Shown here: positions 6,188-62,177 of the stretch, in pieces
Layout of the letters: the number at the start of each line of letters is the position of its first letter
Numbering within the stretch: the stretch's first letter is position 1
Assembly (NCBI RefSeq): GCF_004364585.1
Contig: NZ_SOAN01000008.1
Location: forward strand, 62,001-126,000
Length of the DNA: 64,000 bases
Direction of reading: 5' to 3'
Source of the DNA: Nesterenkonia aurantiaca
GTDB taxonomy: Bacteria > Actinomycetota > Actinomycetes > Actinomycetales > Micrococcaceae
Notes under the pieces: model-generated
Told to the model about the DNA's origin: nothing
The model's database searches: none
What the model saw: the letters and a program-made list of their open reading frames with translations, nothing else
Program-made: the position numbers and the translations under genes

Positions 6188-6233
6188 GGGCCTGAGAATA
6201 CACCGAGGAGGGGTTTTCTTGAGCCGGTTGATC

Positions 6234-6350
6234 CGGACAGCGGTCCGCACAGCGGAGAAATCCTAGGGTGGCACCCCAGGGCGCCCTGGGGGTGTGGACT
6301 TTAGTCTATAGAGTGCACCAGGGTCCGCCGGCCCGTTCCCCGGCGGACCC
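6234..6350 (+). promoter_or_regulatory. Promoter/leader element, copy A (two GGAC-N4-GTCY boxes plus hairpin)
   Basis: A compact control region upstream of the glycosyltransferase that recurs as copy B at 10632-10748. In order: a distal box CGGACAGCGGTCCG (6234-6247); CCTAGGG (6262-6268) followed by GCACCCCAGGGC; a proximal box GGACTTTAGTCT (6296-6307); a -10-like TAGAGT (6309-6314); GCACCAGGG; and an 11-bp perfect hairpin (6321-6331 with 6340-6350, loop of 8). The proximal box matches the core of the mycobacterial DosR/DevR site (GGGACTWWAGTCCC), so a NarL/LuxR-type regulator is a reasonable binder. The two boxes are 61 bases apart, close to six helical turns. Similarity to copy B fades near 6378. 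Confidence 0.7.
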
Positions 6351-6391
6351 ACCCTCTGCAGATCTCCTGCCCGACCTCCGGGAAGCCCACC

Positions 6392-8911
6392 ATGACTGTT
6401 CCTCCCAGCTCCTCCGTGTCTGCCGACGGCCTGACCGCCGCCAGCTCCTCCACCTCCAGCTCGGCTGCCGAGTCCCGCACGCGGCCCTCGGCGAGCCCGC
6501 GACGTCGTCGTCAGCTCGGCGCCGAGCGGCGCACCGAACCCTTGTCGGTGGTGCATCCGCGGCCGAGCCTGCGCCGTATCGTGCTCAGCCGCTTGGCGAT
6601 CCTCGCCACCATGCTGGCCTGGGTCGGGTACGTGGTCAGCACCGTGCTCTGGCAGTTCCTGGAGTACGGCTCGCAGAACTTCCGCTTCACCATGGAGACC
6701 GTGGGCTACCTGCTGGTGGTGACCATGCTGACCTTCTCGGCCCTGATGTACCTCGTGGCCCGGCACGGCGCGCTGCTGCGCTTCCGCTCCCACCGCCGGG
6801 CCTCCCGGGTGGAGCTCGACGCGCACTTCAGCGGGCAGAGCGCGGTCTCGCAGCGTTCCGAGGTCGACTCCCCGATGGTCGTGCTGGTGCCCTCCTACGC
6901 AGAGGAGCCAGGCGTGGTGCGTCAGACCCTGTGGTCCGCGGCGCTGCAGGAATACCCCGAGATCCACGTGGTGCTGCTCATCGACGACGCCCCTGACTCG
7001 CAGAGTCCTGCGCTGGAGCGGACCAGAGGCCTGGCCGCAGAGATCGAGGCCGCCCTGAAGAAGCCCGGAACCAGGATGTCGGACGCCCAGGTCATCTACG
7101 AGATGGGACTCTCCCAGGGCCAGCCGGTGAACTCGCTGCAGGTGCTGACCCTTGCCGGGCACTACTCCTGGGGTGCGGACTGGCTGCGCCAGATGGCGGC
7201 TGAGGAGTCCCGCGTCGATCACGTGGACGACTTCTTCTGCAACCAGGTCCTGGGCGGCCTCTCCGCCGAGCTCGCGGCCACCGCAGAGGCCCTCGTGATG
7301 GCCGCCACGGCCCAGGAGCTGCCTTCCGCAGAGCGGATGCTGCAGCTGCACCGTCGGCTGGCCTGGATCTTCAACGCCGAGCTCAGCAACTTCGAGCGCA
7401 AGAGCTACACGAACCTCTCCCACGAGGCGAACAAGGCCATGAACCTCAACGCCTACCTCGGGCTCCTCGGCGGGGAGTACAAGGCGGAGCTGAGCTTCTC
7501 GGGGACCGCGCTGCGTCCGGTCCAGCCCGGAGAGACTGCGGATCTCAGCGTGGCCGACGCCGAGTTCGTGCTCACCCTCGACGCCGACTCGCTGCTGCTG
7601 CCGGAATACTGCCTGCGCCTGGTCCACCTGCTGGAACAGCCTGGCAACGAGCGGATCGCGGTCACCCAGACTCCGTACTCGTCCTTCCGGGGCGCCGGCA
7701 CACGGATCGAGCGCCTGGCCGGGGCGACCACCGACATCCAGCACCTGCTCCACCAGGGGATGAGCCACGCCGGGGCGACCTTCTGGGTGGGGGCCAATGC
7801 GGTCATCCGGACTGCGGCGCTGCAAGACATCGCCGAGACCAGCTGGGAGAACGGGGTGCTGGTCAAGCGCTTCGTGCAGGACCGCACGGTCATCGAGGAC
7901 ACCGAATCCAGCATCGACCTCGGAACCCACGGCTGGACCCTGATGAACTACCCCGAGCGGCTCTCCTACAGCGCCACCCCGCCGGATTTCGGCTCCCTCG
8001 TGGTTCAGCGGCGCCGCTGGGCCAACGGTGGACTGCTGATCCTGCCCAAGCTGGTGCGCGAGCTGCGCGCCCGCCGTCGTCGGGGGGAGCAGATCCGGCT
8101 GACCGAGGTGATGCTGCGGCTGAACTACATGGCCTCGATCGCCTGGGCCTCCCTGGGGCTGATCTTTCTGCTCGCCTACCCCTATGACTCTCGGCTGCTC
8201 AGCCCGCTGATCCTGCTGGCAGCGCTGCCCTACTTCCTGACCATGGGAGCCGACCTGCGGGAGTGCGGGTACCGGTTCTCTGACATCTTCCGGATCTATG
8301 GGTTCAACCTGATCCTGCTCCCGGTGAACCTGGCCGGGGTGATCAAATCCCTGCAGCAGGCGCTGACCGGAGAGAAGATCCCCTTCGCCCGCACCCCGAA
8401 GGTCAAGGATCGCACCGCTGCACCCTGGATCTACGCGGTCGCACCGGTGCTGATCGTGGGGTTCTCGCTTCTGACCCTTTGGCGCGACATCGGGCAGCAG
8501 AACTGGGGCAACGCCGCCTTCGCCGCCTTCAACGCCTTCTGGGGCACCTGGGCGTTCATCGCGTATATCGGACCCTGGAACGCGTTCATGGATGTGGTGC
8601 TCGCGATCCGCAGCTGGTTCTACGTCGAAGACGTCAAGACCTCCCGGCGACCAGCCAGGAGCTCCAAGAAGGCTCACGCCACGCCGCCCGTCCCTGGGCA
8701 GCTCGACTGGCGACTGGTCCTGGATGAAGGCATCCTCGGCGCGGGCTCAGCCCCTCGCGGGCCCCAGGCCGAGGGTCACCCGAAGCGCAACGGCTCCGCC
8801 TCGCTCGCGGTGCTGCGCCCGCTGACCAGCCAGAAGCTCACCTATCAGCCCCTGTCGCTCGCCCGGCCGTCGGCAGACCGATCCCGCAGCGCCCAGGAGG
8901 AAAACGCATGA
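6392..8911 (+). CDS. Processive family-2 glycosyltransferase (chitin/cellulose/hyaluronan synthase-like)
   Basis: An 839-residue membrane glycosyltransferase. Two N-terminal membrane helices (about 65-90 and 100-122) precede a GT2 catalytic domain with the processive-enzyme set: D198/D199 in LLIDDAP, DAD at 397-399, the ED pair at 502-503 and QRRRW at 539-543. Four or more C-terminal helices follow (about 570-735), as in synthases that extrude the polymer while making it. The last 100 residues are basic and probably cytoplasmic. ATG 6392 has GGAAG upstream. The stop overlaps the ATG of the GH18 gene, so the two are one operon transcribed from the promoter element at 6234-6350. The polymer is not known; the chitin-binding partner suggests an N-acetylglucosamine-containing one. 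Confidence 0.85.
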   Translation: MTVPPSSSVSADGLTAASSSTSSSAAESRTRPSASPRRRRQLGAERRTEPLSVVHPRPSLRRIVLSRLAILATMLAWVGYVVSTVLWQFLEYGSQNFRFTMETVGYLLVVTMLTFSALMYLVARHGALLRFRSHRRASRVELDAHFSGQSAVSQRSEVDSPMVVLVPSYAEEPGVVRQTLWSAALQEYPEIHVVLLIDDAPDSQSPALERTRGLAAEIEAALKKPGTRMSDAQVIYEMGLSQGQPVNSLQVLTLAGHYSWGADWLRQMAAEESRVDHVDDFFCNQVLGGLSAELAATAEALVMAATAQELPSAERMLQLHRRLAWIFNAELSNFERKSYTNLSHEANKAMNLNAYLGLLGGEYKAELSFSGTALRPVQPGETADLSVADAEFVLTLDADSLLLPEYCLRLVHLLEQPGNERIAVTQTPYSSFRGAGTRIERLAGATTDIQHLLHQGMSHAGATFWVGANAVIRTAALQDIAETSWENGVLVKRFVQDRTVIEDTESSIDLGTHGWTLMNYPERLSYSATPPDFGSLVVQRRRWANGGLLILPKLVRELRARRRRGEQIRLTEVMLRLNYMASIAWASLGLIFLLAYPYDSRLLSPLILLAALPYFLTMGADLRECGYRFSDIFRIYGFNLILLPVNLAGVIKSLQQALTGEKIPFARTPKVKDRTAAPWIYAVAPVLIVGFSLLTLWRDIGQQNWGNAAFAAFNAFWGTWAFIAYIGPWNAFMDVVLAIRSWFYVEDVKTSRRPARSSKKAHATPPVPGQLDWRLVLDEGILGAGSAPRGPQAEGHPKRNGSASLAVLRPLTSQKLTYQPLSLARPSADRSRSAQEENA

Positions 8912-10503
8912 GCAGCACCGCACGACTCTCACCGTGGCGAGTTACCCTCGCCGTCATCATTGTGCTCGCCACCGCGGTGGCCGGCGTTCTAGGAGTCCGC
9001 ATGTACGAAGCTCGAGCAGCACAGGAGCCGGCCTCCCACTGGTTCGCCGGCTATGTCGATGTCACCGCCACTCCGAGCTACGCGTTCGAGGAGGGGTCGG
9101 TGGACGCCGAGGGCCACGTGTCCGACGTCGTGCTCTCCTTCATCGTCGCCGATGAAGCCGGGAGCTGCACGCCCAGCTGGGGGACGTACTACGGCCTCGA
9201 GGAGGCCGGCGCGGAGCTCGACCTGGACCGTCGCATCCAGCGGCTGCGTGAACAGGGGGCCGGAGTCGTGGTCTCCTTCGGCGGCGCCATGAATCAGGAG
9301 CTGGCCACGGTCTGCGAGTCTCCGGAGGAGCTCGCCGAGGCCTACCTGGCGGTGATCGAGCGCTACGACCTGGACACCATCGATCTGGACATCGAAGGAC
9401 CCGCACTCGAGGACCCTGAGAGCAACGCGCTGCGCGCCGAAGCGGTGGCGCTGCTGCAGAAGAAGCTCGCTGCCGCGGGCAAGCCGCTCGCGGTGTGGCT
9501 CACGCTGCCGGTGATCCCCAGCGGGCTGACCGCCGACGGGCGCGACGTCGTGATCGGGATGCTCGACTCGGGCGCCGACCTGGCCGGGGTGAACCTGATG
9601 ACCATGAACTACGGCCAGGCGCGCGACTCACGCTCCATGTTCGACGCCTCCGCAGCGTCCCTGCACGCCACCCACCGCCAGCTGGGCATCATGTACGAGC
9701 AGGCCGGGATCCCGCTGAGCAGCGCCTCACTGTGGGGCAAGCTGGGCGCCACTCCCATGGTCGGGCAGAACGACGTGGTGGACGAGGTCTTCACGGTCGA
9801 TGATGCGCAACGTTTCAACGAGTTCGCCGTGGAGAACGGGGTCGGACGGATGTCCATGTGGTCGCTGAACCGGGATGCGACCTGCGGGCCGAACTATCCA
9901 GACACCTCACGGGTCTCTGACGCCTGCAGCGGGGTCGATCAGGGGGAGCTGCGCTTCGCGGAGGTGCTCAGCCAGAGCTACACCGGTCATGCTGCGGAGG
10001 CCGCCTCGGCCACCACCACGCCCGATCCGGCCGCCGCGGCCCCGGCCGAGGATGACCCGGAGACCAGTCCCTATCCCATCTGGACCGAAGAGGCGTCCTA
10101 TCTGGAAGGCACCAAGATCGTCTGGCACCGCAACGTCTACGAGGCGAAGTGGTGGACCCGCGGAGAGCTCCCGGACAACCCGGTGCTCGAAGCCTGGGAT
10201 ACCCCATGGGAGCTGATCGGACCGGTCCTGCCCGGGGAGACCCCGTTGCCGGTCTTCACCGTGGAGAAGGGCACCTACCCGGCCTGGAAGGGCTCGACCT
10301 CCTATGACAAGGGTGACCGGGTGCTCGCCGAGGGAACGCCGTATGAGGCGAAGTGGTGGACCGAGGGAGACAGTCCGGACGCCTCACAGGGCGACCCGGA
10401 CAGCTCGCCATGGGTGCCGCTGACCGCCGAAGACGTCACCGAAGATGCCGCGGAGGACTCGGAGGACTCGGAGGACTCGGAGGACGCAGAGGACGCCGAG
10501 TAG
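8908..10503 (+). CDS. Membrane-anchored GH18 glycosidase with two CBM5/12 chitin-binding modules
   Basis: A 531-residue extracytoplasmic enzyme. A signal peptide or anchor occupies about residues 8-32. The GH18 barrel follows, with strand motif VVSFGGAMN and the catalytic DxxDxDxE at 156-163 (D156, D159, D161, E163 as acid). Two CBM5/12-type modules start near Y389 and Y457, each with the aromatic pattern YEAKWW. The last 25 residues are an acidic Glu-Asp-Ser tail encoded by short GAGGACTCG repeats. It is coupled to the glycosyltransferase (ATGA, AGGAGG upstream). Synthase-hydrolase pairs are usual in exopolysaccharide systems, where the hydrolase trims or releases polymer. It could instead be a plain chitinase, but the overlap argues for a shared job. 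Confidence 0.87.
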   Translation: MSSTARLSPWRVTLAVIIVLATAVAGVLGVRMYEARAAQEPASHWFAGYVDVTATPSYAFEEGSVDAEGHVSDVVLSFIVADEAGSCTPSWGTYYGLEEAGAELDLDRRIQRLREQGAGVVVSFGGAMNQELATVCESPEELAEAYLAVIERYDLDTIDLDIEGPALEDPESNALRAEAVALLQKKLAAAGKPLAVWLTLPVIPSGLTADGRDVVIGMLDSGADLAGVNLMTMNYGQARDSRSMFDASAASLHATHRQLGIMYEQAGIPLSSASLWGKLGATPMVGQNDVVDEVFTVDDAQRFNEFAVENGVGRMSMWSLNRDATCGPNYPDTSRVSDACSGVDQGELRFAEVLSQSYTGHAAEAASATTTPDPAAAAPAEDDPETSPYPIWTEEASYLEGTKIVWHRNVYEAKWWTRGELPDNPVLEAWDTPWELIGPVLPGETPLPVFTVEKGTYPAWKGSTSYDKGDRVLAEGTPYEAKWWTEGDSPDASQGDPDSSPWVPLTAEDVTEDAAEDSEDSEDSEDAEDAE

Positions 10504-10520
10504 CAGTCTTGCCTCGGCGA

Positions 10521-10570
10521 CAGAAGCGGCCCCTGGAGGATCCTGCGGGATCACCCAGGGGCCGCTTCTG
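10521..10570 (+). terminator. Strong hairpin terminator after the GT2-GH18 operon
   Basis: A perfect 16-bp inverted repeat (10521-10536 with 10555-10570, arm CAGAAGCGGCCCCTGG) encloses a second 5-bp stem GATCC-TGCG-GGATC (10539-10552). There is only a weak T content afterwards, as is common for actinobacterial terminators. It begins 18 bases after the GH18 stop. Confidence 0.75.
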
Positions 10571-10631
10571 CTCGCGGACGCCCGGAATCGGCCCGACGGC
10601 CACGCCGCGCGGCTTGTCGAGCCACATGTGT

Positions 10632-10748
10632 CGGACAGAAGTCCGTGGACCCCGGAAAACCTAGGGCCGCACCCCAGGGCGTACGCACAGGTATGGACTT
10701 TAGTCTCTATGTAGCACCAGGGCCCGCCGGCCGTTCCCCGGCGGACCC
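10632..10748 (+). promoter_or_regulatory. Promoter/leader element, copy B (upstream of the sigma factor)
   Basis: The second copy of the element seen at 6234-6350. Distal box CGGACAGAAGTCCG (10632-10645), CCTAGGG (10660-10666), GCACCCCAGGGC, proximal box GGACTTTAGTCT (10695-10706), a -10-like TATGTA (10708-10713), GCACCAGGG, and an 11-bp hairpin with one C-A mismatch (10720-10730 with 10738-10748). Spacing between parts is the same as in copy A to within one base. Similarity continues weakly to about 10778. The 316 bases between the GH18 stop and the sigma start hold this element and the terminator at 10521; I see nothing else there. Confidence 0.7.
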
Positions 10749-10819
10749 GCCCCCCTGCAAGATCCCTCTGGTCCCGGCCCGTGTCAATAACGTCACGCCC
10801 TCTTACACCTAGCTACGGG

Positions 10820-11503
10820 ATGTCTCAAATGTCTATCTCTCCTCTCGCCACCCCTCCCGCCTTCAACCCGAAGCGCGCCCCCATTCTCAGCCAGATCATC
10901 GGCCGGCCCGCAGGTGCCCTGGGCACCAAGACTTCCCATGTCGCGGCGCCGCCGAAGCAGGCCGCCGAGGACGCGCCCTTCGACGTGCGCGAGGCCTACG
11001 CCGCCCACGGAGCCGCCCTCTTCGCGTTCGCGTTCAACGGACTGGGTGACCGGACCGACGCCGAAGACTGCGTCCAGGAGGCGTTCATCCGGGCCTGGAA
11101 GGGCAGGGAGCGCTACAGCAGCTCGCGGGGCTCGGTGCGCACCTGGCTCTTCGCCATCGAGCGGAACCTGATCATCGACGCGCTGCGGTCTCGTTCCCGG
11201 CGTCCGTCGCCCTCGGGAGAGCAGAAGATCGAATCGGCCAGCGAACCGGTGACCGAGGACCTGCTCATCGTGGAGCGGCTGGCCATCTACGAGGCCCTGG
11301 CCGGGCTCAGTGTTGAACACCGCGAGGTGATCGTGGCGGTCAAGCTGGACGGCATGGACTACCAGGAGCTCTCGGAGCGCACCGGCATTCCGATCGCGAC
11401 GCTGCGCACCCGGATGTACTACGGGCTGAGGTCACTGCGCAAGACGCTCGGTGATGGGGCTCGCGATGGCGCTGAGACCACCGCGCTGCAGTCGCTGCGC
11501 TAG
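10820..11503 (+). CDS. ECF-type RNA polymerase sigma factor (sigma-70 family)
   Basis: A 227-residue sigma factor. After a 50-residue Pro/Ala-rich N-terminus comes region 2 (AYAAHGAALFAFAF through DAEDCVQEAFIRAWKG and TWLFAIERNLIIDALR, about residues 55-125) and region 4 (LSVEHREVIVAVKLDGMDYQ then IPIATLRTRMYYGLRSLRK, about 155-205). No anti-sigma gene follows: the next gene is on the other strand and overlaps the stop by the four bases CTAG. The start is uncertain. GTG 10781 and ATG 10829 are in frame; 10829 has a GGGA eight bases upstream. The promoter element ahead of it is shared with the GT2-GH18 operon, so the three genes are probably co-expressed. Confidence 0.87.
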   Translation: MSQMSISPLATPPAFNPKRAPILSQIIGRPAGALGTKTSHVAAPPKQAAEDAPFDVREAYAAHGAALFAFAFNGLGDRTDAEDCVQEAFIRAWKGRERYSSSRGSVRTWLFAIERNLIIDALRSRSRRPSPSGEQKIESASEPVTEDLLIVERLAIYEALAGLSVEHREVIVAVKLDGMDYQELSERTGIPIATLRTRMYYGLRSLRKTLGDGARDGAETTALQSLR

Positions 11504-14259
11504 ATGCCGCGCACCCCGGGGGAGAACCCTGGCGCCTGCTCGGGCGGGGCGGTGCGCTGGGAGGCCACTGCCGCGGAGGTCCAGAGCTCCCGCCTGGAGG
11601 ACATCCCCAGCTTCGGCAGCAGGTTGGACACGTGATACTCCACGGTCTTCTTCGACACGAACAGGCTCTCGGAGATCTCACGATTGGTGCGTCCCTGGGA
11701 GATCAGGTGGGCGATGTCCCGCTCCCGGGGCGTCAACGAGGCGTAGCGGCCGGCCACGGAGAGCAGCCTGCTCTTCACCGCGCCCAGTTCCGGAGAAGCG
11801 CCGAGCTGGGCGAAGATGTCTCGCGCCGCCTCGAGCTGCTCGTCGGCCTCGGCATGCTCGCCGCATTCGCGGTGCGCGATCCCGAGGCTGTGGTGGAGCC
11901 GGGCCTTGGTGTGCGGGAAGTCTGTGGCGAGCCAGATCGCTGCCCGGTAGTCCGCCACCGCCGCCCTGAAGTCCCCGCGCTGTGCGGCGAGCTTCGCCCG
12001 CAGGGCCTGCGGATGGCCATAGGGGAGGGGCAGCGCAGGTTGCAGCGCAACCTGCTTCGAGAACACCTCCAGGAGTCGGCCAGCCTCGGCGATCCGGGCC
12101 CCGCTGGGGTTCTCGAGGTCCAACAGCGCCTCGATCTCCAGGGCACGCCAGCCGATGAGACCCACCTCCTCGGCCCAGGTGCTCAATCTGCTGCGCCTGA
12201 AGGCCGCGATCACGTCGAGGGCCCGCGCATGGTCATGGGACATTCGAGCCGTCCAGGCCATGGCGGTCATGACGTTGTAGAGCGGCAGAGAGCTCGAGGT
12301 CGTCACATGGTGGCTGAGCCAGTCGGTGTGTTCCGCGGCCGCCGTCTCATCGGCATGGGCGACGGCGGCCATGGCCAGCACCGCATGAGAACTGGCGAGG
12401 CCGCGCCAGTCGTAGCTGGCCCGGGCCATCGAGATCACCCGTTCCGCGCGCAGGATCGCATCGCTCCAGCGACCCAGTTGAAACTCGATCATGGCCTGCT
12501 CGGCCATTCCGCGCTGCGCCGCAGCTGGGACCACCCGGTGGTGCCTTCCCTCCTCGGCGCGCTCCAGATCGTCCAGGGCCGCGGCGGTATGACCGGCGTA
12601 GTAGTGCACCCTGGCGCGGAAATAGAGCGCGTCCGTGTGCTCGGCGGTACCAGCTGCCTGGATCAGGAAATCATCCAGGCGCGCGATGGACTCCTCGACC
12701 ACCCCCGAGTTCCACAGCGCGTAGATCTCATGCATGGCCAGCACGCGGCCCAGCACCTTGTCGATGGGAGTAGAGGGTGTGATCCCGAGGAGCCGCAGCT
12801 CGGCCACGGCGGCCTGTGCGGCCTGTGCATCGGCGGCGGCGATCTCCACGGTGCACAGCAGGATCAGCATCCGCCAATGGGTGAGGCTCTCGATGTGCTG
12901 CCCGGCCCCGGGCGCGCGCAGCTCGCTGTGCAGCAGCCGCCGGGCCTCGGCGAGCTGACCGGTGAAGAAGGCCAGACCCGCCTGGAACAGCGTCACCATG
13001 ACCGGGTCTTCGAGCAGGCCGATCTCCGTATGGAGGTCGAGCACGCCGTGCGGGTCCTCCGCTATAGCAACTGTGAGGCTCGCCGTCAGCATCCGGCGCG
13101 CACGTTCGGGCCCGCGACTGACGTTCATGGCCATGGAGAGGTACTCCGCACTGGTCAAATAGTCCCCAGCCTCCAGCGCCTTGAGCCCTTCGACCTCGAA
13201 CTCGTCACCCAGCCCTGGATCTCCGTCAGATGAGGAGGCGGCGCTGAGGTGGCGGGATCGAGCGAGACCGGTCGTGCGCTCAGCAAGCAGCTCGTGCAGC
13301 TGCTGGCGGCGGGCAGGCTCGATCAGTGCCTGGGCCGTCTGCCGCCATGCTTCGTCGGCCAGTCTCACCTCGCGTCCGTTGCCGCTCAGGATCGGGTGCA
13401 GCGCGTCGACCAGGTCATCGGCGTCCACCGGGGCGGCAAGGTCGGGACGAGCGGCCTTCAGCGCGAGGACGGCGGCCTCGGCCGCGACCTCGGCCCGGGA
13501 GTCGCCGGTGTCCAGAGCCAGGACCTCCAGGAATGTCCGCAGGCAGGGTTCCATCCGCTCGAGCTCGGGCCGCAGGAATGACCGCGAGATCGCGGATTGT
13601 TCCTCGGCCTCGGTGTGCACCCCGGCCTCGGCCAGTCGCAGGGCGACGCCGGGGTTGCCCGCCGCTCTCATGTGCACCGCTGCGACGGTCTCTTCGTTGA
13701 GCTGGTGGCCGTGCTGGCGCAGCAACCTGCTCAGCTCATGGCGCGTGATGCCGCGCAGCGTGACCCGAGTTCCGGTGTGCGCGGACATCCTCGCCAGCCT
13801 GCGGGTGAGCGGATCGACCGTGGGGGAGGAGGTCAGCAGGATCAGCACCGGGGAATCGGCGTTGCGGGTCAGCGACGCCTGATCCACCAGCTGTTCCAGA
13901 GCGTGCTTCGCCTCAGCCGAGGACCGGTGGAGGTCATCGACGACCAAGCAGTAGGGGCCGGTCCCGTGTGTCTGCAGGGACTCGCACATCCCCCGGAAAG
14001 GGGTCAGATCCGCGAGTGAGAGCACTGTCAGGCCAGCGCCGGCGGCGCGTTCCCGCGCCTCGGAGGCCAGTGCGGACTTCCCGGAGCCTACGGTTCCCTC
14101 GAGGAAGCAGACACCGCTGTGCCCGGCAAGGGTGCGATGGATCGCGCGCAGCGCCTTGGCGCGCTCCGAGTCCCGCCCAATCACGATTCTGGCAGCTGAT
14201 GCTTTCACATGCATGACCCCCGTCGGGTTCAACGCGCCACCTTCAGCGGCGTTGAACAC
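11500..14259 (-). CDS. Large LuxR-family ATPase transcriptional regulator (LAL type)
   Basis: A 919-residue regulator with an N-terminal AAA-like NTPase (P-loop GTVGSGKS at 55-62, a hydrophobic Walker B run ending LVVDDLHRS near 115), a long helical repeat region (about 340-840) and a C-terminal LuxR helix-turn-helix (LTPRERDIAHLISQGRTN onward, about 855-905). LAL proteins usually activate carbohydrate or secondary metabolism operons in response to ligand and ATP. Its stop shares CTAG with the convergent sigma gene. GTG 14259 has GGGGAT upstream; the in-frame ATG at 14214 is an alternative. Its helix-turn-helix is of the class that binds inverted sites like those at 6296 and 10695, but whether it does so here is unknown. 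Confidence 0.87.
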   Translation of the reverse strand: MFNAAEGGALNPTGVMHVKASAARIVIGRDSERAKALRAIHRTLAGHSGVCFLEGTVGSGKSALASEARERAAGAGLTVLSLADLTPFRGMCESLQTHGTGPYCLVVDDLHRSSAEAKHALEQLVDQASLTRNADSPVLILLTSSPTVDPLTRRLARMSAHTGTRVTLRGITRHELSRLLRQHGHQLNEETVAAVHMRAAGNPGVALRLAEAGVHTEAEEQSAISRSFLRPELERMEPCLRTFLEVLALDTGDSRAEVAAEAAVLALKAARPDLAAPVDADDLVDALHPILSGNGREVRLADEAWRQTAQALIEPARRQQLHELLAERTTGLARSRHLSAASSSDGDPGLGDEFEVEGLKALEAGDYLTSAEYLSMAMNVSRGPERARRMLTASLTVAIAEDPHGVLDLHTEIGLLEDPVMVTLFQAGLAFFTGQLAEARRLLHSELRAPGAGQHIESLTHWRMLILLCTVEIAAADAQAAQAAVAELRLLGITPSTPIDKVLGRVLAMHEIYALWNSGVVEESIARLDDFLIQAAGTAEHTDALYFRARVHYYAGHTAAALDDLERAEEGRHHRVVPAAAQRGMAEQAMIEFQLGRWSDAILRAERVISMARASYDWRGLASSHAVLAMAAVAHADETAAAEHTDWLSHHVTTSSSLPLYNVMTAMAWTARMSHDHARALDVIAAFRRSRLSTWAEEVGLIGWRALEIEALLDLENPSGARIAEAGRLLEVFSKQVALQPALPLPYGHPQALRAKLAAQRGDFRAAVADYRAAIWLATDFPHTKARLHHSLGIAHRECGEHAEADEQLEAARDIFAQLGASPELGAVKSRLLSVAGRYASLTPRERDIAHLISQGRTNREISESLFVSKKTVEYHVSNLLPKLGMSSRRELWTSAAVASQRTAPPEQAPGFSPGVRGI

Positions 14260-38183: not shown

Positions 38184-38341
38184 GCCAGTGAGAGGGATCG
38201 AACTCATATGTTCCGGTCCTCGGTAGTAGCCTCCGGGAGGCACGAGACGTGCCAGGCCCGTGGGCTTCGATCGATGACCGACCATATGTACGCAGATCCT
38301 TTCCTCTCACTGGCTCGCCAGTAATGCACGCAACTGAGAGG
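38184..38341 (+). promoter_or_regulatory. pnp 5' leader with mutually exclusive stems
   Basis: The segment CCTCTCACTGGC (38303-38314) can pair perfectly with GCCAGTGAGAGG (38184-38195) far upstream, a stem that extends to 14 pairs with one G-U. Alternatively CCTCTCA (38303-38309) pairs with TGAGAGG (38335-38341), which is the Shine-Dalgarno region of pnp, while CTGG/CCAG (38310-38313 and 38318-38321) form a small hairpin in between. A further stem GGCACG-AGA-CGTGCC lies at 38239-38253. The two states would expose or hide the ribosome binding site. This is a structural inference; pnp leaders are known to mediate autoregulation in other bacteria. Confidence 0.5.
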
Positions 38342-59658: not shown

Positions 59659-62177
59659 AATACGGAGTCCGTGGCTTCGGAGGCTCCTTCTCCACGGAGA
59701 AGCTGCCTTCTGATCTGTCGGTAGCTGAAGCGCTCAGCCACCTCGGCTGGAGAATGAATACCGTAGAAGTGTTCTTCCAAGAGCGGCAGAAGATCGTACT
59801 TCCAGATCCGTTCGAGACCGACTTCGGTCGCGGCCTGGGTGCGCATGAAATAAGAAGGCCCGATGTGCTGGTCTCGGCTCTCCTCTCCAAGCTCGTCGTT
59901 GAGCGCCTCAAGGAGACGTGCGCGCGTCGCGGAGAATCCTCGAGCACGAAGCCAACGGTCGAGCAGCCCAGCGACGGGGGTGCTGTCTGGGTGCATCTCT
60001 AGAAACGCGAACCGGCGACGGATTGCGGTGTCAACCATTGCGATGGAGCGGTCCGCCGTGTTCATCGTGCCGATGATGTAGAGGTTCGGAGGGAGCCGGA
60101 ACTTCTCTCCCGAGGAGTACTGCAGTCGGATGTGCTCGTCCCGATACTCAAGTAGGAAGTACATCTCGCCGAAAATCTTGGCGAGGTTCCCTCGGTTGAT
60201 CTCGTCGATGAGGAGGACGTATGGCCGCTGTGGATCGTTGGTCGCTTTGGCAGCGAGGCGTCGCAGGGGTCCAGGCTTGAGGTCAAAGCCGAGTCCACCG
60301 GAATCCGTCGGGCTCGGGCGGTACCCCTCGAAGAAATCCTCGTATGCATAGGAGGGGTGGAACTGCACGATCTCAGGTTCTTGGTTGGTCACGTGCCGGG
60401 CGATGGCGCGCGCCAGGAAGGTCTTGCCGGTGCCAGGAGGTCCGTACAGGATGATCTGGCGGCGTTCCTCGAGCACGGAGATCATCTCATCGAGCCAGAT
60501 CTGGTCCATGTGGAGCTGATCGGCCAGAGCGGGGCCAGCTGGTCGAAATTCACCGCTGTGGGCGATGTCATTGAGATTGGGTGTTGAGTCAGAGGTCTGG
60601 ACATCTTCACGGAAGGTTGAGTCATCTTCGAGCATGTCTTGCAGGTAAGGCAGCGACCCGGGAAGTTCGACGACGCCGGGAGACTCATCAATCTCTGAGG
60701 ACACATGTTCGGGGAGCGCGTCAATTGACACAGGCTCTTCGTTCCATGTCACTTCTCGACGGATTTCGTGGAGGTCAGGGTCGAAGTTGCCTTCTCCTGA
60801 GATTCGACCCACCCATATGGCTGATCCGTCTCGCACCGCTACGGCGTCGCCTTCCTCCATTCGGGAAATGAAGGTGTGGATTTCTTCGGCGAGGATCAGG
60901 CGGCGGGCCGAGTCGAGGTGCCGGTATGCGTCGAAGACTCGATTTCTGACCGTCACGAAGTCTGATCCGGGCTCAAGCGATCTCAGGTAAGAGGCGTTGT
61001 AACTCATGGCTGCTTCCTTGAGCCACTTGGACGTGGCACCGGCGTCTTCGGTCCGTGGTTGCACCGCCCAGGCGTGGGTGCCTTCCCAGGTCCGTTTTTG
61101 CCATGTTGAGTACCAGGGCTCGGCAAACCAATCGATTCTGGTCTCTGCGTCTTCCTCGAGATGCTTTCGCAAGAGGTACAGGTCGTGGTCGAGGTCAGAG
61201 GAGAGCTGAAGATCCGGGGCGAGACCACTAAGTCCGTCGAACAACGCGCGTTTGTGTTTCTCGCTGATCAGGTGCTCGAAGACGAAAGGGAACGCCAGGA
61301 ATCTGAGTGTGTTCCTCATGGAAGGCTGCTCGTATGGGACAGCGTCTGTGATGTCCCTAAATCGCCAGGGGTCCTCTCGCGCTTCATGTTGGGCTGGCCT
61401 TGAGAGTGTTGTCCAGGACTTGGCAAACAGAGCCATCCAGATCATCTGCTTCCAGAACTGCTGGTTGTACCCCTGCCCTCCATGGAAGATGCCGGGCAAA
61501 TTCAGGCAGAGTCTCATCAGCTCGGGGACAGCGGGCTTGTCTGGAAGCCAGGCCAACAGGGTCTCGATGTACCCCAATTTCGTGTCCGGTCGAAGGTTCA
61601 TCAACGGGAGGCTGCGGAGGTAGATGGACTCAGCTGCTAGCAGCACCACATCTCGGGGAGCATTCTTCAGTTGGAGTTCGAGTTTCTCCATGAAACTTCC
61701 GGGACCCTCATTTGGATCATCCTGGATGGCACTTCGAAGATACTCAGCATTCTCGGGCGTCCAGATCTTGCGGCTGGGGTCGATGACGGAGAGCCCGTCG
61801 CCGAAGAGATGCCCCAGTACGAACCGTGCAGCGTCGCCCATCGCCGATACGTGGGCGGGATAACTTTCGCCTGGTCCAACGTAGACGGTCGCGTCCTCAG
61901 GTCCGATCAGACAACTGAGACAGAAGCGGGAGTCGACACCGACGGTGACCGCCTCAGCGGATTGCTCTCGCCAGGCTTGCTGAACTTCATCGAGCGCCAC
62001 CATGACGGCCGAGTCAGGAGCTGCGGAGCAATCGCGAACATGGTACGTGCCAGACGGGGTGTCCCATAGGTAGCCCTCCTGAGACCAGACCAGGTCGAAC
62101 CTGCGTCCAGCGAATCGTCGGGAGGGCAAATGAGTCGCCGACGTACTTCGCGCCGCGCGCTGCGCATCTGTATCCAT
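59655..62177 (-). CDS. mcrB: McrB-like GTPase/AAA+ subunit with a large N-terminal region
   Basis: An 840-residue AAA+ protein that powers DNA translocation for McrC. The motor lies in about residues 560-800 with Walker A GPPGTGKT (579-586), a Walker B stretch ending VLLIDEINRGNLAKIFGE, and the sensor region IIGTMNTADRSIAMVD. About residues 450-500 (MEEGDAVAVRDGSAIWVG) resemble the small EVE-like modified-base reader of some McrB proteins. The first 400 residues match no domain I know; a CLSC and an HVRDCS motif lie near the start. ATG 62175-62177 follows GAGGGG. Confidence 0.87.
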   Translation of the reverse strand: MDTDAQRAARSTSATHLPSRRFAGRRFDLVWSQEGYLWDTPSGTYHVRDCSAAPDSAVMVALDEVQQAWREQSAEAVTVGVDSRFCLSCLIGPEDATVYVGPGESYPAHVSAMGDAARFVLGHLFGDGLSVIDPSRKIWTPENAEYLRSAIQDDPNEGPGSFMEKLELQLKNAPRDVVLLAAESIYLRSLPLMNLRPDTKLGYIETLLAWLPDKPAVPELMRLCLNLPGIFHGGQGYNQQFWKQMIWMALFAKSWTTLSRPAQHEAREDPWRFRDITDAVPYEQPSMRNTLRFLAFPFVFEHLISEKHKRALFDGLSGLAPDLQLSSDLDHDLYLLRKHLEEDAETRIDWFAEPWYSTWQKRTWEGTHAWAVQPRTEDAGATSKWLKEAAMSYNASYLRSLEPGSDFVTVRNRVFDAYRHLDSARRLILAEEIHTFISRMEEGDAVAVRDGSAIWVGRISGEGNFDPDLHEIRREVTWNEEPVSIDALPEHVSSEIDESPGVVELPGSLPYLQDMLEDDSTFREDVQTSDSTPNLNDIAHSGEFRPAGPALADQLHMDQIWLDEMISVLEERRQIILYGPPGTGKTFLARAIARHVTNQEPEIVQFHPSYAYEDFFEGYRPSPTDSGGLGFDLKPGPLRRLAAKATNDPQRPYVLLIDEINRGNLAKIFGEMYFLLEYRDEHIRLQYSSGEKFRLPPNLYIIGTMNTADRSIAMVDTAIRRRFAFLEMHPDSTPVAGLLDRWLRARGFSATRARLLEALNDELGEESRDQHIGPSYFMRTQAATEVGLERIWKYDLLPLLEEHFYGIHSPAEVAERFSYRQIRRQLLRGEGASEATDSVL

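Follow-up and report, generated by a model that had tools for sequence, protein, structure and literature searches.

A putative dedicated promoter and leader of a polysaccharide synthase operon in Nesterenkonia, with a second copy before a sigma factor gene

Two neighbouring transcription units of Nesterenkonia aurantiaca, a polysaccharide synthase operon and a gene for a sigma factor, are preceded by copies of the same promoter-like element. What is this element, what might read it, and how did it come to stand in front of both? The question arises from a window of 64,000 nucleotides (positions 62,001 to 126,000 of contig NZ_SOAN01000008.1), which is part of contig C8 of a 2.95-Mb genome. Copy 1 separates the GT2 synthase gene from a divergent Gfo/Idh/MocA oxidoreductase gene, and copy 2 lies between a long hairpin 3' of a GH18 gene and an ECF-like sigma gene. 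The next gene after the sigma gene, convergent with it, encodes a LuxR-type regulator of 919 amino acids. Judged from sequence, it is reasonably probable that the element is a dedicated activator-dependent promoter and 5' leader of the GT2-GH18 operon, read by this neighbouring regulator and copied to an inserted sigma gene.

Anatomy and distribution of the element

A sequence-only reading of the window had described two copies that share their parts, and direct inspection of both copies bears this out. Ungapped blocks are 71% identical between 6216-6283 and 10614-10681, and 74% identical between 6291-6360 and 10690-10759. The parts of the two copies are as follows.

6235..6246, + strand: distal dyad D of copy 1, CGGAC-N4-GTCCG including its edges (arm bases over 12 elements)
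6263..6279, + strand: middle dyad M of copy 1, CTAGGGTGGCACCCCAG (CTAGGGYNNNRCCCYAG in 12 of 12 elements)
6296..6307, + strand: proximal box P of copy 1, whose 3' half TAGTCT (6302-6307) is the proposed -10 (TAGTCT in 12 of 12)
6315..6320, + strand: GCACCA, directly past the predicted transcription start at about 6314 (mean pairwise identity 0.89)
6321..6350, + strand: 11-bp hairpin at the 5' end of the predicted GT2 mRNA (94.7% of cells paired; in the minimum-energy fold)
10633..10644, + strand: distal dyad D of copy 2 (box scan and alignment)
10661..10677, + strand: middle dyad M of copy 2, CTAGGGCCGCACCCCAG (pattern scan and alignment)
10695..10706, + strand: proximal box P of copy 2 with the proposed -10 TAGTCT (box scan and alignment)
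10720..10748, + strand: leader hairpin of copy 2, with 10 of 11 pairs standard (alignment of 12)

Elements were collected by searching 197 family genomes with DNA and 30 genus genomes with the GT2 protein, and by reading the loci. Twelve were found in nine of the 30 Nesterenkonia genomes, all at one locus, so that conservation in relatives, proposed as a check in the sequence-only reading, was confirmed. Eight of the twelve stand before GT2, and three are second copies before the sigma gene (in the N. aurantiaca genome, G213, and G042). The last is the sole element of G089, where the GT2-GH18 pair is absent, the regulator is kept, and the sigma gene lies directly behind the operon-type promoter. 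The element precedes the synthase in all eight genus genomes in which a synthase was found.

A covariance model of the 12 elements recovers all of them at 113.2-149.2 bits. Because the model was built from these elements, their own scores are high by construction, and the informative quantity is the gap below them. Within the 30 genus genomes, the best remaining score is 24.6 bits, where the model matched a known copy on its opposite strand; in 295 family genomes it is 27.2 bits, for the hairpin part. Weak matches occur in 29 of the 30 genus genomes at E <= 1 and in 60 of the 295 family genomes at E <= 0.01, the nine element genomes included. These are mostly the hairpin part alone, with nominal E-values down to 1.2e-5 outside the genus, although E-values from this model are rough. 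The two best matches outside the genus (G181 and G252; L271 and L272) come from another genus and share a GC-rich hairpin, without M or P.

The synthase is distributed more broadly than the element. From another collection, 186 GT2 relatives were found and 80 loci kept. Outside the genus, the GT2-GH18 pair is common among Micrococcales; 79 of the 80 loci have GH18 close to GT2, and the contig of the lone locus without it (L168) ends just past GT2. CCTAGG is absent from the 76 GT2 upstream regions outside the genus, and since about three occurrences were expected, this absence alone says little; the whole model was therefore run, on 79 loci (L201 was left out). It returned three elements, in two Nesterenkonia loci only (113-144 bits), all already among the 12, and the best score among the other 77 loci was 16.7 bits. 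GGAC-N4-GTCC occurs in four of the 76 upstream regions, with about one expected in all 78.

Counts of the element's parts are based on an alignment of the 12 elements (A2). The most regular part is M, a 17-bp dyad of the form CTAGGGY-N3-RCCCYAG (CTAGGGYNNNRCCCYAG), which is kept in all 12. The sequence-only reading had listed a CCTAGGG motif; this is present, but is only the left part of the larger dyad, whose right part lies within CACCCCAG, and the full dyad had been missed. In D (GGAC-N4-GTCC), the eight arm bases are complete in nine elements; seven remain in G089 and six in the second copy of G213, and the dyad is lost in that of G042. Its N4 is variable, and most rows have C before it and G after it. 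In P (GAC-N4-GTCT), all 12 elements have TAGTCT and 11 have GAC; it starts with GGAC in six rows, AGAC in three, CGAC in two, and GAAC in one, while its centre is TTTA in six and AATA in six. P is present where the sequence-only reading placed a proximal box, but rather than being a DosR site it more likely contains a -10.

Spacing is equally regular. The two GGAC-N4-GTCY boxes lie 61 (copy 1) and 62 (copy 2) bases apart, as had been noted and as their coordinates confirm. The centres of D and M are separated by 29.5-31.5 bp in all 11 elements with D, and those of M and P by 30.5 or 31.5 bp in all 12. Each interval of about 30 bp corresponds to three helical turns, which would place the three dyads on roughly the same face of the DNA. 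The hairpin begins 26 nucleotides after the start of P in every element. Its description as an 11-bp hairpin 13 bases past the proximal box also held (6321-6350), and copy 2 has a C-A mismatch at one of the 11 pairs.

Mean pairwise identity was measured over nine elements (the eight GT2-type elements and that of G089). It is highest in M (6260-6282; 0.91) among the segments measured, followed by GCACCA (0.89), P (0.86), and the hairpin arms (0.86 for the 5' arm and 0.81 for the other). It falls to 0.68, 0.62, and 0.60 in the gaps and to 0.56 at the start of the open reading frame. D has 0.76 and the adjoining stretch from the Gfo start to D has 0.78; it is thus the dyad pattern, rather than mean identity, that sets D apart. 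Single boxes are likewise uninformative: GGAC-N4-GTCY occurs 10 times in the window against 8.9 expected (palindromes counted on both strands), which is the chance level. The non-randomness of the element rests on joint conservation across species.

The candidate reader and its alternatives

The genes and the intergenic hairpin of the locus are listed here.

6392..8911, + strand: GT2 polysaccharide synthase, 839 amino acids (Pfam PF13632, 2.3e-35)
8908..10503, + strand: GH18-type glycosidase with CBM5/12, 531 amino acids (PF02839, 3.7e-8; PF00704, 1.4e-6, slightly short of the cut-off)
10521..10570, + strand: long hairpin between GH18 and copy 2 (23-nucleotide arms, 91% complementary, 4 nucleotides between them)
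10820..11503, + strand: ECF-like sigma factor (PF04542, 2e-20; PF08281, 6.6e-10; TIGR02937, 1.5e-26)
11500..14259, - strand: large LuxR-type regulator, 919 amino acids (PF00196, 1.2e-17; PF13191 AAA_16, 1.7e-6; PF10923, 5.1e-6)

The start of GH18 overlaps the stop of GT2, and the hairpin behind GH18 appears terminator-like. Matches of GT2 to the NCBIfam models for cellulose synthase and PgaC/IcaA are far under their cut-offs. The listed reading frame of the sigma gene begins at a GTG at 10781.

The regulator, which the sequence-only reading had missed, combines an N-terminal P-loop ATPase-like part, a TPR-like middle, and a C-terminal GerE helix-turn-helix. It can be classed as a large P-loop ATPase joined to GerE, with an ATPase part that is weak (PF10923 at 26.1 bits against a cut-off of 22.2). 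Among 395 family genomes searched, it was found at E <= 1e-80 in exactly the nine with the element and in none of the other 386. Similarly, full-length relatives occur at two Nesterenkonia loci only among the 80 GT2 loci, one other locus having a helix-turn-helix match alone. The centre of P (TTTA or AATA) tracks the type of recognition helix (SKK/SQK or SVK/SIK) in eight of the nine genomes, and G042 has both centres and both helix types. In G042 (L110 3260-8905) the regulator gene occurs twice in tandem, and the recognition helices of the two copies differ.

A NarL/LuxR-type binder had been suggested in the sequence-only reading, and this helix-turn-helix class does appear the likeliest, while its DosR variety is not supported. 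Among solved structures, DevR is the best match for the helix-turn-helix of the regulator (E = 2e-9), barely ahead of others. At E <= 1e-5 the genome has 16 GerE matches, of which three fall in the window (starts 11578, 26255, and 52766).

These features are consistent with the following course of events. TAGTCT would serve as the -10, with transcription of copy 1 starting near 6314. M would then be centred near -43, in the -35 region. The binder would be the regulator encoded at 11500-14259, acting by analogy in the manner of MalT or IniR: on a signal, which might be a sugar fragment connected with the polymer, it would assemble with ATP, and the assembly would bind the phased dyads jointly and recruit RNA polymerase.

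Several observations weigh against this account. The AAA_16 match of the regulator, at 29.1 bits, is under its cut-off of 32.6. In the search for the regulator, no more than two first-look candidates were scored in each genome. Since the locus is inherited as a block, the co-occurrence of element and regulator is suggestive rather than independent and may reflect linkage after one gain. The match between P centre and helix type is confounded by descent and broken by G107. D is absent from the second copy in G042 and weak in that of G213. No M site was found near the regulator's own start in the window, with up to two mismatches allowed, and M-like sites apart from the 12 in elements number three in the 30 genomes, against 21 for a reversed control. 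The single sigma-type leader folded was no more stable than its shuffles (z 0.18), and the sigma protein tree does not establish that the sigma gene entered the locus a single time. Lastly, inducer-driven assembly rests on MalT, because purified IniR multimerised without trehalose (PMC5760070).

The expectation of a regulon across the genome, raised in the sequence-only reading, was not supported: DNA, box, and 12-copy-model searches found two copies only. In the DNA search copy 2 appeared at E = 1e-18; among the 23 matches listed, one was the query and 21 others were short, with E of at least 0.038. For the exact P box, the 30 genus genomes gave seven sites against 11 for a reversed control, with no surplus beyond the element. 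The lack of a surplus of boxes gives no sign of a scattered regulon, although weaker sites could escape such patterns. The element looks like a local switch rather than the mark of a genome-wide regulon. An extra M-like dyad, CTAGGGYGAAGCCCCAG, occurs without D or P at G000:C1:288294 (L226 1501-1517) and G089:C1:179888 (L234 1501-1517), in two regions that are 86.5% identical over 3 kb. In L226, it lies about 145 nucleotides ahead of an open reading frame whose start presumably resembles alanine dehydrogenase.

The same architecture could serve repression. One repressor might bridge D and P, with P lying over the -10, and so shut the promoter by looping, M being an activator site between them. 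Both D and P fit GAC-N4-GTC while their centres vary, P overlaps the invariant TAGTCT, and 61-62 bp is about six helical turns. This alternative nevertheless appears unlikely: D is lost or weak in two of the three sigma-type second copies, no candidate repressor was identified, and a loop of only 61 bp would be tight unless a protein bent the DNA.

It is less likely again that D and P are the sites of a response regulator of the DosR/DevR type, which would switch on both genes in low oxygen or stress. The sequence-only reading saw no DosR-like regulator in the window, but two orthologs are present elsewhere in the genome. They have the recognition helix EKTVKNYVS, and DevR (3c3w) is the best solved-structure match of the one compared (E = 1.1e-60). 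The presence of these orthologs and the DevR match favour such a binder, as does their setting beside universal stress proteins and GAF-type kinases; P has its TTTA form in four of the nine element genomes, all four of which have DosR, and GGACTTTAGTCT is close to the DosR core. The likeness extends to a GACTTTAGTC core in six of the 12 copies. Against this, a DosR ortholog is found in only six of the nine element genomes: at E <= 1e-45 it was not detected in G203, G214, or G066, which keep D and P, whereas it is found in four of the 21 genomes without the element (G178, G188, G207, and G210). P is never GGGAC, its centre is AATA in six of 12, and the full form GGGAC-N4-GTCCC occurs in none of the 12 P or 11 D boxes. 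That full form does stand 98-100 nucleotides upstream of the leader motif in three of seven sigma paralogs examined (own_C2, G089_C4, and G107_c). Membership of a DosR regulon was rejected as the main reading, as an ortholog was not found in every genome that has the boxes and the boxes lack the full form.

The Dos-type locus itself (L114; G000:C2:225000-240000) contains two DosR-like regulators (229-233 kb), two kinases presumed from their sequences to be of the GAF type, presumed universal stress proteins, and a sigma paralog.

The leader hairpin and the sigma gene

With transcription starting as proposed, the hairpin would occupy about +8 to +37, leaving about seven nucleotides of mRNA before it. 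5' stem-loops are known as protectors of 5' ends, and the hairpin might, by the same token, protect or insulate the 5' end of the mRNA. Seven of the 11 stem pairs are invariant, and one pair swaps U-A for C-G in four of 12 elements. Shuffle controls gave mixed results. The paired percentage was reached by eight of 500 shuffles and the covariation score by 10 of 500, which is unusual, while doubly changed pairs were reached by 442 of 500 and pair types by 366 of 500, which is ordinary. Consequently, the support for RNA structure is modest. Four GT2-type leaders were folded, and each minimum-energy structure contains the hairpin (z -1.6 to -2.6).

It could be argued from the near-invariant stem with its compensated pair, the two unusual shuffle results, and these folds that the main control acts at the RNA level, the hairpin being a cis-regulatory RNA or a protein-binding leader. 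This is improbable, given the two ordinary covariation measures, a variable loop, the z of the sigma-type leader, and the lack of any Rfam family at the gathering score; no alternative fold was noticed, without a systematic search for one. Across the whole window at that score, Rfam matched only Actino-pnp (38212-38282; 57.3 bits) and not the leader hairpin. A T-run of the attenuator type is also lacking in the stretch of about 30 nucleotides after the hairpin, where the longest run is at most three T in 11 of 12 elements and five T in G205.

Four of the nine genomes have the sigma gene at the locus; the other five lack it there and keep the element. Ahead of the hairpin, AGCACC is common to the three sigma-type copies. 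In the tree of elements, the N. aurantiaca and G213 second copies group together (95/96), and the three sigma-type copies separate from the other nine with weak support (76/81). Given the shared AGCACC and this separate grouping, the duplication probably predates the split of the N. aurantiaca genome, G213, and G042. The sequence-only reading had named a recent local duplication as what would undo its proposal, and on this weak tree support such an origin is unlikely. In a common ancestor of these three genomes, a copy of the element would have accompanied the sigma gene when it inserted between GH18 and the regulator, and sigma gene and operon would then be switched on together.

The sigma family is multi-copy, with five matches in the N. 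aurantiaca genome at E <= 1e-20. A wider proposal is tentative: that the element is a portable cassette in which three phased dyads are combined with an internal -10 and a hairpin at the mRNA 5' end, that one STAND-type LuxR regulator reads it, and that its copying from the polysaccharide operon onto the inserted sigma gene wired a multi-copy sigma family into a local circuit.

That the sigma factor reads the element itself, with P and its surroundings as its own promoter, is the least probable alternative and was rejected: the second copy precedes the sigma gene and a P-like TCGACTTTAGTTACTAT stands upstream of another sigma relative (G042, contig C17), but five of the nine loci keep the element without the sigma gene, and G066 keeps it with no sigma relative found at E <= 1e-20 (among the other loci without the sigma gene, G107 has relatives elsewhere, and the search did not extend to G203, G205, and G214).

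Sigma relatives have features of their own. A P-like TCGACTTTAGTTACTATG lies upstream of a distant sigma relative at G042:C17:46001-46519 (L059), a search match with one internal stop. Seven sigma paralogs (L052, L053, L057, L063, L064, L067, and L069; from the N. aurantiaca genome, G042, G089, and G107) have a different shared leader, with an invariant TTGCACCGGA flanked by stems of two sequence types. By eye, its loop could pair with the Shine-Dalgarno sequence. The paralogs also share an upstream reading frame of 34-89 codons (M-[PSL]-[VI]...), which by eye overlaps the sigma start in own_C2. The leader has no Rfam match, and four of these leaders folded with z of -0.43, -1.83, 0.61, and -0.89. 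GT2 and the sigma factor of the locus appear by eye to start with a similar peptide.

Other observations concern the synthase loci. In G213 (L107), GT2 reads as two overlapping pieces, through either a gene break or a sequencing error. L201, from a contig titled Vibrio cholerae, resembles Micrococcales loci (60% identity in GT2 and 53% in GH18) and is probably mislabelled or contaminating. Seven Microbacteriaceae GT2 leaders (L148, L157, L159, L160, L162, L166, and L175) show, by eye, repeated CCCGA motifs and possible hairpins upstream of the start; at these seven loci Rfam matched only tRNAs, elsewhere in three of them.

Related systems and significance

Known systems offer partial parallels. 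In MalT, the order of domains is ATPase-like, TPR-like, and GerE, and the candidate regulator has the same order. Unlike the sites described here, MalT boxes are not dyads, and the match of the regulator to PRK04841 lies in the helix-turn-helix only (24.9 bits against 537). MalT of E. coli belongs to the STAND family, members of which assemble on inducer binding (PMC4381067).

The IniR-iniBAC pair of mycobacteria is similar in that a large ATPase regulator with a C-terminal LuxR-like helix-turn-helix lies beside one target operon. IniR is reported to regulate only that operon, with trehalose as the inducer (PMC5760070). In the same way, no further full copies of the target element were found here. 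The two regulators differ in that the match to NF038181 is confined to the helix-turn-helix (34.8 bits against a cut-off of 750), and the target genes appear unrelated.

For M, the closest parallel is the PAS-LuxR operator of the PimM type, CTVGGGAWWTCCCBAG, which lies in the -35 region (PMC9774167). The arms CTAGGG and CCCYAG of M are alike, and the -35 placement is that proposed for M. Arms of this kind, known from the -35 region, thus agree with TAGTCT as the -10. M departs from the operator in having a centre of five bases (YNNNR) instead of AWWT, one extra, giving 17 bp rather than 16, and does not fit the 16-bp pattern. The candidate regulator also differs in having no PAS match in Pfam.

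No description of the element was found in open-licence literature. Its organisation suggests that it would work like the promoter of a pathway-specific LuxR regulator. Large ATP-binding LuxR regulators have been called 'a poorly studied family' (PMC3282765). The locus offers a compact, conserved operator with its candidate regulator adjoining, in organisms that can be tested. If the proposed history is true, it would be a case of promoter capture, in which an inserted sigma gene acquired a copy of a control region, and three genomes have retained it.

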